This document shows, one piece after another, positions 6,938 to 16,100 of a stretch of DNA of 64,000 nt. The position numbers were made by a program, and so were the translations under genes. This DNA comes from Nigrospora sphaerica (lineage: Eukaryota > Ascomycota > Sordariomycetes > Amphisphaeriales > Apiosporaceae): positions 1,984,001 to 2,048,000 of the forward strand of contig JAGVVL010000025.1 in the NCBI GenBank assembly GCA_018287875.1. The letters run 5' to 3'. The notes below the pieces were generated by a model, which did no database searches, was not told the DNA's origin, and saw nothing but the letters and a program-made list of their open reading frames with translations. Every line of letters starts with the position of its first letter. The stretch's first letter is position 1.

Positions 6938-8022
6938 CTTGGCGGTGTTGGCGACTGAACGACTGGGGAATGGGTGGTGGTCGAGGTGTAAGGGTCTTGG
7001 TGTGTGTGGTGTTCGTTTTCGAAGACGGCTCCGCGAATTTGCGAATTTTGGCTGAAAACGGTGGGCCACCGAAAAAATCCCACGGCCGGCCCGCCCCAAG
7101 CACAAGCCACCAAACCAGCCTTGGGATTGGACCTGGTCAGGCTGGCCCCAGCCACACTTGCCCGCTCGAGGGCCGACGCACCAGCCACATGCAGGCCCTA
7201 TTGCTTTACAGTTGGCGATTGCCATGAACACTTGATAGCACTGGAGCCGCCCATACTCGGTACTGCTTGCTGCTCATATTTGGCCCGGCTTTCCTCCCAA
7301 TGCTGCCTTATCCTGATGGGAAAACTACCAAGGGCGAGCGTTAAATTCCTGCTCTCTGCAAACCTCCCATGGTCTAGCCTCAAGCTCTACGCAGTATGGG
7401 GCACCGAATGCGGGATATGTAGTACCCGTTTGTCAGTGGATACTGTCTACATTACGGAGTATACCTGAAGCCTTGTCGAGTCTGTTTATACACTGAGGGA
7501 AGCGGCATCGAAGCCACCTCGCGACGCAAGGAGGCAGTGAACAGCCACAGTATGGAAGGTGGCTGGAAAAGTTCCCGCCGTGCACCCTGTACATGAGGAC
7601 CCCAGCTATTTCGCCCCATTCCCGCTTTGGGATGGGCTACATGAACTAGCGGCTTGTGCAGTGTAATTGTGCTGTCCCCGACTTGTGTAACCAGCTTATA
7701 CCACGCTAACTCCCAGCTAGCTCCGACAGCTGTTGTCTAGTTGAGATTTTTCCCATAGGCAGGCGTAGCAAGGCCGCGAGGAAGACGTAGCCGACTCCAA
7801 CTTATTGCCATCGCGCCCCAACCTCCGCAAAAGGTCATCATCGCCTTGTACCTTTTGCGCGTCGAGACAGGCATCTAGTTGGGCATCGCCGTTTCGGATA
7901 TCGCCGTCCCACCGGACTGCACGCTTGGTTGCGCCCGACGCCCGCTGCTGAGACGCGACGGGTCGCGGCGCGAAAGCGGTAGCATCGTTCAGCTGTCCAC
8001 CACCCGCATACCCGTCTGAACA
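6938..8022. promoter_or_regulatory. Divergent upstream region of eL34 and PRP8
   Basis: About 1.1 kb lies between the start codons of eL34 (minus) and PRP8 (plus) and must hold both promoters. I recognise no defined factor site. The PRP8 ATG has an A at -3, a favourable context. Confidence 0.5.
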
Positions 8023-10137
8023 ATGTCGTCCTTTCAACCCCCTCCGCCCCCCCCCGGTTGGGGACCCCCTCCGCCGCCGCCGCCTCCTGGTCCTCCTTCC
8101 GACTTGCCTCCCCCTCCGCCAGGAGCTCCGGCGCCGCCCCCTCCTCCTGGCTACCGGCCTCCTACCGACCCCCACATCGCCAAGTTCGCGCAGAAGAAGA
8201 AGGAATGGCTTCGGATGCAGAGGAACCGCTTCGGCGAGAAGCGCAAGGCTGGCTTCGTCGAGACCCAGAAGGCCGACATGCCCCCCGAGCATCTGCGCAA
8301 GATCGTCAAGGATATCGGCGACGTCTCCCAGAAGAAGTACACCAGCGACAAGCGCAGCTACTTGGGCGCGCTCAAGTTCATGCCCCACGCCGTCATGAAA
8401 CTCCTGGAGAACATGCCCATGCCCTGGGAATCTGCGAGGGAGGTCAAAGTGTTGTACCACGTCAACGGCTGCCTGACTTTGGTCAACGAGATCCCGAGGG
8501 TTATCGAGCCAGTCTTCATCGCCCAGTGGACGACCATGTGGTTAACCATGCGTAAAGAGAAGAGTGATCGAAGGTTGTTTAAGCGCATGCGATTTCCGCC
8601 CTTCGATGACGAGGAGCCGCCCCTGTCGTGGTCCGAGAACATCGAAGACGTCGAGCCGCTTGAGCCTATCCAGATGGAACTGGACGAGGACGAAGATGGG
8701 GCCGTCTACGAGTGGTTTTACGACCACCGGCCGTTGCTCGACACGCCGCATGTCAATGGGCCCAGCTACAAGACCTGGAATTTGACCCTGCAACAGATGG
8801 CCACTCTCCACCGACTGAGCCGGCCTTTGCTGTCCGAGAACTTTGACAAGAACTACTTCTACCTCTTCGAGATGAAGAGCTTCATGACTTCCAAGGCTCT
8901 TAATGTCGCGCTCCCTGGTGGCCCGCGGTTCGAGCCCCTGTACAAAGATATCGACCCGAACGATGAGGACTTTGGCGAGTTCAACGCCATCGACAGAATC
9001 ATCTTCCGCACCCCCTTGCGAACCGAGTCTCGTGTCGCATTCCCCTTCCTTTACAACTCGCTGCCCAGGAGCGTCCGGCTTAGCTGGTACGCCCACCCGC
9101 AGACCGTTTACAGGGGAATGGCCGATCCGAACCTGCCGGCTTTCCACTACGACAGAGCCATGAACCCGATATCATCACGGTCTGTCGCGCCGAAGAACGT
9201 GACTCTGAGCCACGAGGACGAAATTTTTGGACCGGGCAACAATGAGGAGCCCGAGGAAGATGCCTTCGAGCTTCCCGCCGGCGTCGAGCCATTCCTGGCC
9301 GACGAGGAGCTGTACAACGAGGACACGACGGCCGCGATCGAGCTATGCTGGGCGCCTTTCCCCTTCGACAGACGCTCTGGGCGCATGGTTCGCGCTCAGG
9401 ACGTACCTCTTATCAAGCACATGTACCTGGAGCACTGCCCTGAAAAGCAGCCGGTCAAGGTTCGCGTTTCATATCAGAAGCTTCTCAAGACGTTCGTCCT
9501 GAATGAGCTTCACAAGAAGCGCCCCAAGGCCCTGAACAAGCAGAACCTACTCAAGAGCTTGAAGCAGACGAAGTTCTTCCAGCAGACGACCATTGACTGG
9601 GTAGAAGCAGGTCTTCAGGTCTGTCGGCAGGGCTTCAACATGCTAAACCTTCTTATTCATCGCAAGAACCTCACCTATCTGCATCTTGATTACAATTTCA
9701 ACCTCAAACCCGTCAAGACATTGACCACCAAGGAGCGAAAGAAGTCACGCTTTGGCAACGCGTTCCACTTGATGCGTGAAATCCTGCGCTTGACCAAGCT
9801 CATCGTCGACGCTCAAGTGCAGTACCGGCTCGGCAACATCGATGCTTTCCAGCTTGCCGATGGTATCCTGTACGCCTTCAACCACGTCGGTCAGCTGACT
9901 GGTATGTACCGGTACAAGTACAAGCTCATGCACCAAATCCGATCTTGCAAAGACTTGAAGCACCTTATCTACTACCGCTTCAACAGCGGCCCCGTGGGCA
10001 AGGGACCCGGTTGTGGTTTCTGGGCGCCCGCCTGGAGAGTCTGGCTCTTCTTCATGAGGGGCATCATCCCTCTTCTTGAGAGATGGCTTGGAAACTTGCT
10101 TTCGCGTCAATTCGAGGGTCGTCACAGCAAGGGTGTG

Positions 10138-10169
<32 letters not shown>

Positions 10170-13100
10170 TCACTTCGATCTTGAGCTGCGGGCCTCGGTC
10201 ATGGCCGACCTGATGGACATGATGCCCGAGGGTATCAAGCAGAACAAGGTCAACACGGTCCTCCAGCATCTGTCAGAAGCCTGGAGATGCTGGAAGAGCA
10301 ATATTCCGTGGAAGGTGCCTGGCCTGCCCGCGCAAATCGAGAACATCATCCTTCGATACGTCAAGTCGAAGGCGGATTGGTGGATTTCTGTCGCCCACTA
10401 CAACCGTGAGCGTATCCGTCGAGGCGCGACTGTCGACAAGACTGTCGCTAAGAAGAACGTCGGCCGTCTTACCCGTCTGTGGCTCAAGGCCGAGCAGGAA
10501 CGCCAGCACAACTACATGAAGGACGGCCCTTACGTCTCTTCCGAGGAAGCCGTGGCCATCTACACTACCACCGTGCACTGGCTCGAGTCTCGGAAGTTCA
10601 CCCCTATCCCGTTCCCGAGTGTGTCTTACAAGCACGACACCAAGATTCTCATTCTTGCCCTCGAACGGCTCCGAGAGGCCTATTCCGTCAAGGGTCGTCT
10701 CAACCAGAACCAGAGAGAGGAGCTTGCGTTGATCGAGCAAGCATACGATAGCCCAGGAACCACACTGGAGCGAATCAAGCGCTTCCTTCTGACCCAGCGT
10801 GCTTTCAAGGAAGTCCAAATCGATATGAACGACAACTATAGCACCATCAACCCCGTCTACGACATCGAGCCCATTGAGAAAATTAGCGATGCGTATCTTG
10901 ACCAATACCTGTGGTACCAGGCCGACCAGCGACACCTTTTCCCAGCATGGATCAAGCCCTCCGACTCCGAGGTGCCACCTCTCCTGGTGTACAAGTGGGC
11001 CCAGGGCATCAACAACCTGGATAAAGTATGGGAGACTGCCGATGGCGAGTGCAACGTCATGATCGAGACGGAGCTGTCCAAGGTCTACGAGAAAATCGAC
11101 CTGACGCTTCTGAACCGCCTGCTGCGTTTGATTATGGACCACAACCTTGCGGACTACATTAGCGCCAAGAACAACGTGCAACTGACGTACAAGGATATGA
11201 ACCACGTCAACAGCTACGGTATGATTCGCGGCCTTCAGTTTTCCGGATTTGTGTTCCAATACTACGGACTTGTACTGGATCTCCTTCTCCTGGGCCTGAA
11301 CCGCGCCAGTGAGATTGCTGGGCCTCCCAACAGCCCCAACGACTTCCTTCAGTTCCGTGATCGTGAGACGGAGACGAAGCACCCAATCCGTCTGTACACA
11401 CGATACATTGATAAGATCTGGGTCTTCTTCCGTTTCACGGCAGATGAATCTAGGGATCTCATCCAACGGTTCCTGACCGAACAGCCCGACCCCAACTTCG
11501 AGAACGTCATTGGATACAAGAGCAAGAAGTGCTGGCCGAGGGACGCCCGTATGCGCCTGATGCGGCACGACGTCAACCTGGGCCGCGCTGTCTTCTGGGA
11601 CCTGAAGAACCGCCTGCCCCGTTCCGTGACGACCATCGACTGGGATGACACTTTTGCTAGTGTTTACAGTCGGGACAACCCGAACCTGCTCTTTTCCATG
11701 TGCGGCTTTGAGGTGCGCATTCTGCCCAAGATTCGGAATCAGAACGATGAGTTCCCCATAAAGGACAGTGTGTGGTCCCTCGTGGACAACACCACCAAGG
11801 AACGCACAGCCCATGCCTTCCTTCAAGTTACCGAGGAAGACATCCAGAAGTTCAACAACCGCATCAGGCAGATCCTGATGTCTTCGGGATCCACCACTTT
11901 CACGAAGATTGCCAACAAGTGGAACACGGCCTTGATTGCGCTCTTCACATACTATCGTGAGGCGGCAGTGTCGACTGTCAGTCTCCTGGACACCATTGTC
12001 AAGTGTGAGACGAAGATCCAGACGCGAGTCAAGATCGGTCTCAACTCGAAAATGCCGTCGCGTTTCCCACCTGCCGTGTTCTATACCCCCAAGGAACTTG
12101 GTGGTCTTGGCATGATCTCTGGGTCACACATCCTGATCCCTGCCAGCGACAAACGATGGTCCAAGCAGACAGACACCGGTGTCACTCACTACCGAGCCGG
12201 AATGACGCACGACGAGGAGACGCTCATTCCTAACATCTTCCGATACATCATCCCGTGGGAGGCCGAATTCATCGACTCCCAGCGCGTGTGGACAGAGTAC
12301 TCGCAGAAGCGACTCGAAGCGAACCAGCAAAACCGACGTCTCACCCTCGAAGACCTCGAGGACAGCTGGGACCGAGGTCTTCCTCGAATCAACACGCTGT
12401 TCCAAAAGGACCGAAGCACGCTCAGCTTCGACAAGGGCTTCCGCGCACGGAGTGAATTCAAGATTTACCAGCTCATGAAGAGCAATCCATTCTGGTGGAC
12501 GAGTCAGAGGCATGATGGCAAGCTGTGGAACCTCAACGCCTACCGCACCGATGTCATTCAGGCCTTGGGCGGTGTGGAGACCATCCTCGAGCACACCCTC
12601 TTCAAAGCAACAGGATTCCCATCCTGGGAGGGTCTCTTTTGGGAGCGTGCCTGTCTCGCGAAAGGCACTCGACTCCTCCGATTCGATCGCTCTGAAGTCG
12701 CTGTTGAGGATGTCCAAGAAGGAGATTTGCTCTTGGGTCCCGACGGTACCGAACGACGCGCTTTTAACATCGTCAAAGGCAAGGATCGTCTCTACCGAAT
12801 CAAGATTGGGGCGCGCAAAGAGGATCTCGTGGTTACTCCCAATCACATATTGGTCCTTCACCGAGAGAAAACCGGCAACGCGTATCAGGGATTGTCGATC
12901 GAGGAGCAACGCGCCCGGTTTGTGGACGAGCTTGGCGATCTCCCGGAACTCAGTTCATGCGCTGCAGACGAGAACAGGCCAAACAATCTAGTAAAACAGC
13001 GCTCCAGTTTCCTGAGCGCTCTGAAATCCGCATTGGCCTGGGTTCTGTCTGCTGAGCGCGGTAAAGCAGGGGCTGATGTTGTTCGGAACGCCCTCAATGG

Positions 13101-16100
13101 TACCATAGGCATAACGGCTCTCAAGGAATCATACATGGTCAACATACCTGTTGGACGTGGGAGCCGGGCAGAGTTCTGTCTGTTCTGCTGGGGGAACCCG
13201 GGCAGAATCTCTGGCGCGCGATCAGAACGAAGCCGTACGTTCTATTCGTCCAAGGAAGAAGCGTTCCAGGCTGCCGTGGCGAAGAGCCGTGAGATCCACA
13301 ACGCGGGAGACATCACTTTGGCCAACTTACGACAGCGCTTCGAAGAAAAGTCTGCCAACGGGAAAGGTGGCGAACTCCGAGTCGACAGCACCCTGCCGAA
13401 TATATTCCTTCTCTGGAACAAGAACGGATCCCAGCTCAGGATCAGGGCGTACTGTTCTCGTGATCACCGCAAGTACGGGCGCTACTATGCGTTCCCGTCT
13501 TTCCCTTCGGGTGATGGCACAGGATCAGACACTGATCAAGACGATATCATGCCTGACCCGTTGGAACAGCCCGATCTTTCTCCAGCTGATCGCTTTGATA
13601 CTGTGGAAATGACAGCCAAAGATTTCGCAGAGCTTCCGGCTAACGAGAGAGCCCGCTACCGACTGTTCCGATCTCCCGGCTATGATTTGCCCAAGCAAGA
13701 TGTTCCCGTTAACCCATACTTCCTTGGGTTGTGGTTGGGTGATGGATCTCGTGCTAAAACGACGATCCATAACAATCACGAGGCTGAAGTGAGAGACTTC
13801 CTTGTTAGATACGCGGCGGAACTTGATCAACACCTCGTCTGGTATGGATCTCTCGATTACGCAATCGTCGGCAGAACCTCCCTTGCTTCCCGACCGATGC
13901 CCGAGGTCAACGTACAGGCTCCCAACAGACCTGATGGGCCCCGAGTTTCTCGGCAGACGATGCTGAAACGGCGCCTCGCTGCTGGGTGGGCCATCCAAGA
14001 AGGCCGCGAGCCGGGAGAACCGCGCATTTGGCTGAAACCATCCCAGGACCCAGGCGATTGCTCCCAGAACCAGGCCCAGAGTTCGGGCAATCAGGCCCGG
14101 AGCTCAGGTGATTGCACTGAAAGTTCAGGCAATCAGGCCCGGAGCTCAGGAGATTGCACTGAGAGTTCAGGCGATCAAGCCCAGAGATCAAGCGATTGCA
14201 CTGAGAGTTCAGGTGATCAGGCCCAGCGATCGAGCGATTGCCCTCAGAGCTCAGACGATCAAGCCCAGATCTCAGACGATCAAGCCCAGAGCTCAGACGA
14301 TCAAGCTCAGAGCTCAGGAAATCGGGCTCAGAGATCAAGCGATTGCCCTCAGAGATCGAGCGATTGCCCTCAGAGCCCAGACGATCAGGTCCAGAGCTCA
14401 GGAGATTGCCCTTCGAGTTCAGGCAGTCGGACCCGAAAACGTGAATTGGAGGTAGATCCAATCACATCACCCTATCAGCTTCGACAAAAGCCGCGTACAG
14501 AGGTGCCCGATTCGCAGGCGAGCTTGTTCGCGTCCTCAATTGATCTGGAGAAAGTCCCGCTCAATCTCCGGCGGCAGCCAAAGCCGCGATCAGAGATACC
14601 AGACTCGCAGCAGAGCGCATCCTCCATCGACATTTTCCGAACTCCAACAAACCCAGAGCGACACCAATCGGCTACCCCAATTCCCGACGATTCGCTCTCC
14701 CAGCTGCTCTCGGATGCTGATTTCATGAGGTTTGTTGGGTCTGCCGAAGCTGCTGATGAGCTGGACCTCGTGCGCACCCGCGATGTCGGAGTTGAGTTCT
14801 CGGATGTTCAGAACTTGGGAGACGATCAAGAAGATCAAGGTGATGAGCAGAGTGGTGAGAAGCGGCAGGTTACCAGTCTGGACGCGGGCGTCAAGGAATA
14901 CGGCGATCTGGAGCCAGAAGAGGAGGAAGAACTCATTCAGGAGTTCGCCAATGGGAAATCCGGTATCAACGGTCTCCTCGACTCTTTGCGGCAACTCGGA
15001 GTCGCCTCGCCAACGGGCCAGACAGGGTACTCGACTGATCAAAAGCACATCCCAGCTCTGTACATGCAGAACTCACGGGAAACCCGCCTGGCTCTTCTCG
15101 CGGGTTTGATTGACTCGGACGGTACCTACGTCTACCCAGAGAACATGTTTGTCTTCGCCCAAAGCGAGCGGTGGCATTACACTCTGTTCTGGGACGTGGT
15201 GGCTCTCGCGCGCTCCCTGGGGTTCAGCGTTTCTACTAACTCGGCGATCTATCGGTTTCCGAACAGTGATGAGAAAGGTCTCAAACTGATCGCCGGCATC
15301 TCTGGAAACGTAACCGAGATTCCGTGTCTGCTCGCACGGAAGAAGGCCTGCGAACGCTATATCCCCCAGATGCACAGCTTCATGATCAAGGACATAACGC
15401 TCGAAGAAGAGACCACAGAATGGGCCGGCTTCCGGGTGGACAAGGATCAACTCTACCTCCGCCACGACTACTTGGTTCTGCACAACAGCGGTTTCGAGGA
15501 GAGCATGAAGTTCAAGAAGTTGACGAACGCCCAGAGGTCGGGTCTGAACCAGATCCCGAATCGACGCTTCACGCTGTGGTGGAGTCCCACCATTAACCGT
15601 GCTAACGTCTACGTCGGTTTCCAAGTCCAGCTCGACTTGACGGGTATCTTCCTTCACGGCAAGATCCCGACGCTCAAGATCTCGTTAATCCAGATCTTCA
15701 GAGCCCATTTGTGGCAGAAGATTCAGTTAGTACCACACAGTCCCCTATTTCCGTCCCTATACTGACTTGGTGGCCCGCAGCGAATCTGTCGTCATGGACT
15801 TCTGCCAGGTCTTTGACCAGGAGCTTGAATCCCTCGGCATTGAAACAGTGCAAAAGGAGACGATTCACCCTCGAAAGTCGTATAAGATGAACAGTTCTTG
15901 TGCCGACATTCTGCTATTTGCCAGCAACAAATGGAATGTAACTAGGCCGTCGCTGCTGTACGACACCAAGGATGTCATCGAACCGGTGACGACGAACAAG
16001 TTCTGGATTGACGTCCAGTTAAGGTATTCCAGCCATTTTTCATACGCACTTTGGCGACAGAAAGGGAGCTGACACTCACATAGGTATGGTGACTACGATT

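Follow-up and report, generated by a model that had tools for sequence, protein, structure and literature searches.

A 945-residue LAGLIDADG intein in the Prp8 gene of Nigrospora sphaerica and its candidate accessory DNA-recognition domain

Results

A Prp8 intein in Nigrospora sphaerica

We analysed a 64,000-nucleotide stretch of the Nigrospora sphaerica genome (hereafter the window; assembly GCA_018287875.1, contig JAGVVL010000025.1, positions 1,984,001 to 2,048,000), in which Prp8, a core gene of the splicing machinery, carries a 2835-bp insert. The insert is a Prp8-a intein that is predicted to splice, and we think it likely that it is a homing intein in which self-excision is combined with a two-motif LAGLIDADG endonuclease, an N-proximal domain acting in accessory DNA recognition and a spacer serving as a linker. 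The evidence suggests that the N-proximal domain, whose function was earlier unexplained, belongs to the endonuclease.

Prp8 exteins and insert share one uninterrupted open reading frame (8020-15765) that begins at the proline-rich start of Prp8. The length of the insert is a multiple of three, and its stop-free translation of 945 residues runs from CLAKGT to VLHN between the Prp8 sequences WERA and SGFEES, a junction which we take to be Prp8 site a, in agreement with same-site relatives. Cys1, His65 in a TPNH motif, His944-Asn945 and Ser+1 are all present, and Pfam placed Hom_end_hint at residues 1-73 and Hom_end at residues 800-864. A search of PDB sequences returned the Cryptococcus Prp8 inteins as the best solved relatives (E 8.9e-38), with an alignment covering blocks A and B, the pre-C stretch and blocks F and G; PI-SceI was also matched (E 3.7e-11). 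The splicing parts of an AlphaFold2 model superposed on the Cryptococcus intein over 143 of 143 residues at 0.9 A, so that in both sequence and predicted fold the splicing domain agrees with solved Prp8 inteins. The original prediction of a PRP8 intein at the WERA/SGFEES site with all splicing residues intact is thus borne out by the open frame, the boundaries and the PDB match. Its statement that the insert uses fewer GC-ending codons than the exteins also holds, because GC content at third codon positions was 0.593 in the insert, 0.747 in the N-extein and 0.809 in the first 68 codons of the C-extein. A search of the genome gave a single Prp8 match with a single intein.

Size relative to other Prp8 inteins

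A homologue search returned 58 proteins among 8000 candidates scored, 36 of which were aligned with the window protein (37 rows); P0034, mini-inteins, cloning vectors and the distant hits P0047-P0059 were excluded. Both intein ends were visible in nine aligned rows (1061, 998, 954, 945 in the window, 887, 838, 621, 598 and 486 residues). Six of these reach at least 800 residues, and the three that exceed 945 all lie at the site of the window intein. Many N-truncated rows were estimated at 800-1059 residues, assuming a missing part of the window's length, and the excluded rows P0034, P0039 and P0040 measure 317, 209 and 159 residues. Prp8 inteins above 800 residues were described in 2018 as the HEN(+)extra class, with a maximum of 1065 residues; their linkers were called unknown in origin and function, and some bear repeats (PMC5784728). 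The window intein has the features of this class: more than 800 residues, an endonuclease and extra linker and repeats. A length of 945 residues is therefore ordinary among endonuclease-bearing Prp8 inteins, since longer same-site relatives were aligned and a 1065-residue example is published. The intein had been proposed to be of exceptional size, at the top of the known range or above it, and this claim and the novelty attached to it fall with the length comparison. The two-part origin proposed for the extra length, an N-proximal domain plus a long disordered spacer, is what we found.

Endonuclease and spacer

Two LAGLIDADG motifs, an Asp pair (Asp364 and Asp821) and two active-site lysines (Lys798 and Lys897) mark the window intein by sequence as a predicted LAGLIDADG homing endonuclease with its catalytic residues intact. 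The roles of the lysines are presumed from PI-SceI. Assignment of the Asp pair to the active site follows PMC1508164. Median identity to relatives was 52% and 48% for the two endonuclease halves.

The AlphaFold2 model, built from 37 sequences (mean predicted local distance difference test score, pLDDT, 70.1), showed folded splicing, N-proximal and endonuclease parts, and a spacer scoring nearly throughout below 50. The spacer is unconserved, with only one of 36 rows covering 70% of it, and it bears 17 in-frame heptad units. Seven of the 17 units end in Cys. Across the whole spacer there are 8 cysteines, and none of the other 36 rows, some of them cut short in this region, has more than 3. The block C Asp is separated from the block D Lys by 434 residues. 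Six rows (P0013, P0014, P0017, P0021, P0022 and P0026) have a longer spacing still, and all six keep the four catalytic residues. The window intein is an ordinary and probably active member of its class.

The N-proximal domain and its coupling to the endonuclease

The N-proximal domain was found in 25 of the 37 rows, counted as present at 60% of its length or more; several such rows start inside the domain owing to truncated reading frames. In these searches it was seen only in fungal Prp8-type inteins and in two ex-inteins described below. The distance from the block B His to the pre-C Met was 248-267 residues in the 18 measurable domain-bearing rows, 15-51 in five domain-free rows, and 145 in P0019, which has two domain fragments.

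We mapped the domain onto a tree built without it (46 rows, including 11 outgroups, bacterial where a source was named). Its presence required 7 changes, of which well-supported branches force 6 or more; shuffled labels required a mean of 13.4. A domain profile gave no significant match in any outgroup. The simplest story would be a single gain followed by repeated loss.

All four catalytic residues were present in each of the 24 rows that have the domain and both endonuclease halves. Among six rows with block B visible and the domain absent or partial, one or more catalytic residues are missing from P0019, P0030 and P0031, whereas P0020, P0024 and P0025 keep all four. This association gave a Fisher p of 0.0049, a post hoc value uncorrected for kinship. 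The test left out the truncated P0023, P0034 (no domain and an incomplete first endonuclease part), the mini-inteins, and the late-starting rows P0029, P0032 and P0035-P0038, in which the domain cannot be judged; among these last, catalytic residues are lost in P0029, P0036 and P0037 and kept in P0032, and block C is unreadable in P0035 and P0038. Neither domain nor endonuclease was detected at E 0.001 in P0039, P0040, P0045 and P0046. P0085 has no endonuclease, lacks the middle of the domain and is apparently caught in decay; it serves as an illustration and not as a count, because the search that found it was restricted to short proteins.

The predicted fold of the domain contains a strand-strand-strand-helix unit with a weak structural resemblance to AP2. 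Single-sequence Pfam scans of 13 members gave no AP2 match at E values up to 10, nor was AP2 among the 25 Pfam families listed, out of 32, for 37 members. The domain resembles a module for gripping DNA and tends to disappear when the endonuclease degenerates.

Stand-alone relatives and a second Prp8 site

Two relatives, P0027 (Cryoendolithus antarcticus) and P0028 (Rachicladosporium sp.), are without Prp8 exteins according to their gene models. P0028 has no Cys1 and no terminal His-Asn, and reads TSETVL in place of the TPNHIL of the window; P0027 has neither the block A/B part nor the terminal Asn. Both retain the N-proximal domain and the D/K/D/K catalytic set. Over 43% of P0028 the two share 42% identity, and they pair with each other in the tree (99/90). 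It is possible that they are stand-alone Prp8-type ex-inteins, that is, HO-like free endonucleases. A literature search on stand-alone or domesticated Prp8 inteins listed a single paper, which concerns prokaryotes.

P0033, an 838-residue intein, occupies a different Prp8 position (MMPESIK upstream) and shares with the window intein the N-proximal domain and the arrangement of the endonuclease. Inteins at different Prp8 sites have been described as strongly different and independently acquired (PMC6805012); the shared domain suggests that movement between sites may fit P0033 better than independent acquisition.

Table 1. Features of the Prp8 intein; positions are those of the window
Feature	Position	Strand	Remark
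Prp8 intein, site a, 945 aa, LAGLIDADG endonuclease-bearing	12652..15486	+	
N-terminal splicing part, blocks A and B, aa 1-73	12652..12870	+	
Cys1	12652..12654	+	
His65 of TPNH	12844..12846	+	
N-proximal domain, aa 76-290	12877..13521	+	folded accessory domain
AP2-like strand-strand-strand-helix unit, aa 153-219	13108..13308	+	within N-proximal domain; fold resemblance only
Conserved pre-C stretch, aa 313-350	13588..13701	+	matches Cryptococcus structures; reported retained in mini-inteins (PMC1508164)
First LAGLIDADG motif region, aa 351-402	13702..13857	+	
Catalytic Asp364	13741..13743	+	
Predicted disordered spacer, aa 468-678	14053..14685	+	pLDDT <50 except residue 566
In-frame 21-bp (7-aa) tandem repeat array, 17 units	14074..14430	+	
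Second endonuclease half, blocks D, E and H, aa 791-904	15022..15363	+	
Lys798	15043..15045	+	second endonuclease half
Asp821	15112..15114	+	second endonuclease half
Lys897	15340..15342	+	second endonuclease half
C-terminal splicing part, blocks F and G, aa 908-945	15373..15486	+	
His944-Asn945	15481..15486	+	
Ser+1	15487..15489	+	

Discussion

The residues and fold of the Hint domain suggest that, after translation, it would excise the 945-residue insert and ligate the Prp8 exteins. The freed protein would act as a two-motif LAGLIDADG endonuclease that cuts intein-less Prp8 alleles, into which repair would copy the intein. The N-proximal domain of about 215 residues, placed inside Hint like the DNA recognition region of PI-SceI, is most likely an accessory DNA-recognition domain, a role we infer from its evolutionary coupling to the endonuclease and its AP2-like predicted fold. 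The repeat-bearing, disordered spacer that separates the LAGLIDADG halves may be a tolerated, expanding linker.

Alternatively, the endonuclease may have lost its activity already, with the intein fixed and its large extra regions carried along as neutral ballast. The unconserved, repeat-bearing spacer would fit this, as would a C-to-D gap beyond the 212-300 residues reported in 2006 (PMC1508164). However, the four catalytic residues are intact here and in all six rows with a longer gap, and the endonuclease halves are conserved while the spacer is not; we consider inactivity unlikely. The position of the N-proximal domain within Hint could also indicate that it aids splicing or precursor folding, as a chaperone or regulatory part, instead of recognising DNA. 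This is harder still to credit, as the domain-free rows P0020, P0024 and P0030 keep all four splicing residues examined, the two ex-inteins carry the domain without the splicing set, and the mini-intein of Cryptococcus, whose alignment to the window intein leaves out the N-proximal domain, reportedly splices well in a reporter (PMC6805012). Removal of the insert, or of the repeat array inside it, as a spliceosomal intron is extremely improbable: the insert starts with TGCCTG and ends with CACAAC, not GT..AG, and its 945 open codons encode conserved splicing and endonuclease motifs.

Beyond the homing intein itself, we put forward, tentatively and with more doubt than confidence, a wider history. 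The insert of large Prp8 inteins may be an ancient accessory DNA-recognition domain with an AP2-like core that joined a LAGLIDADG intein endonuclease, having been gained once in fungi, and would tend to be lost with endonuclease decay. In some rock-dwelling fungi the pair may have been freed to act as endonucleases that stand alone and do not splice, which would make a second escape of the HO kind from an intein. The domain, said to have no known similarity in 2006 (PMC1508164) and placed in 2018 among linkers whose origin and role were not known (PMC5784728), gains a testable function. If it does recognise DNA, its loss with endonuclease decay would be explained, and it would be a natural specificity module for LAGLIDADG enzymes.

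PI-SceI, the Saccharomyces VMA1 intein, shares with the window intein the Hint and LAGLIDADG architecture, the catalytic blocks and an accessory region in Hint, but it resides in another host gene and has 454 residues. The accessory domain of the window intein is presumably the larger, and no sequence relation between the two accessory regions was detected. Also among the closest known systems are the HEN(+)extra inteins of Prp8-a, which have in common with the window intein the host protein, the LAGLIDADG endonuclease, an insert after block B, a long C-D linker, repeats in some, and more than 800 residues (PMC5784728, PMC1508164); the window intein differs in its 945 residues and 17-unit heptad array. 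The Prp8 intein of A. fumigatus has 819 residues and a 203-residue insert after block B, with a related insert in Botrytis; the 2006 account reported no similarity for this insert (PMC1508164), whereas its counterpart in the window is predicted to fold and is coupled to the endonuclease. Position and size suggest that the two are the same domain, though A. fumigatus was not named among the hits. A homing nuclease is likewise paired with an AP2-type DNA-binding domain, at the C terminus, in certain HNH homing endonucleases (PMC10448857); here the nuclease is of another family, and the AP2 likeness is structural and weak. The yeast HO and WHO proteins are stand-alone endonucleases related to inteins, and P0027 and P0028 seem to be of this kind, a likeness in outline: the nearest relative of HO and WHO is the VMA1 intein, and they have zinc fingers (PMC7282813), whereas P0027 and P0028 are Prp8-type with the N-proximal domain. 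Unlike these, the window element is still an intein. In the stand-alone ex-inteins, an endonuclease of intein origin would have left its host gene independently of the event that gave rise to yeast HO.
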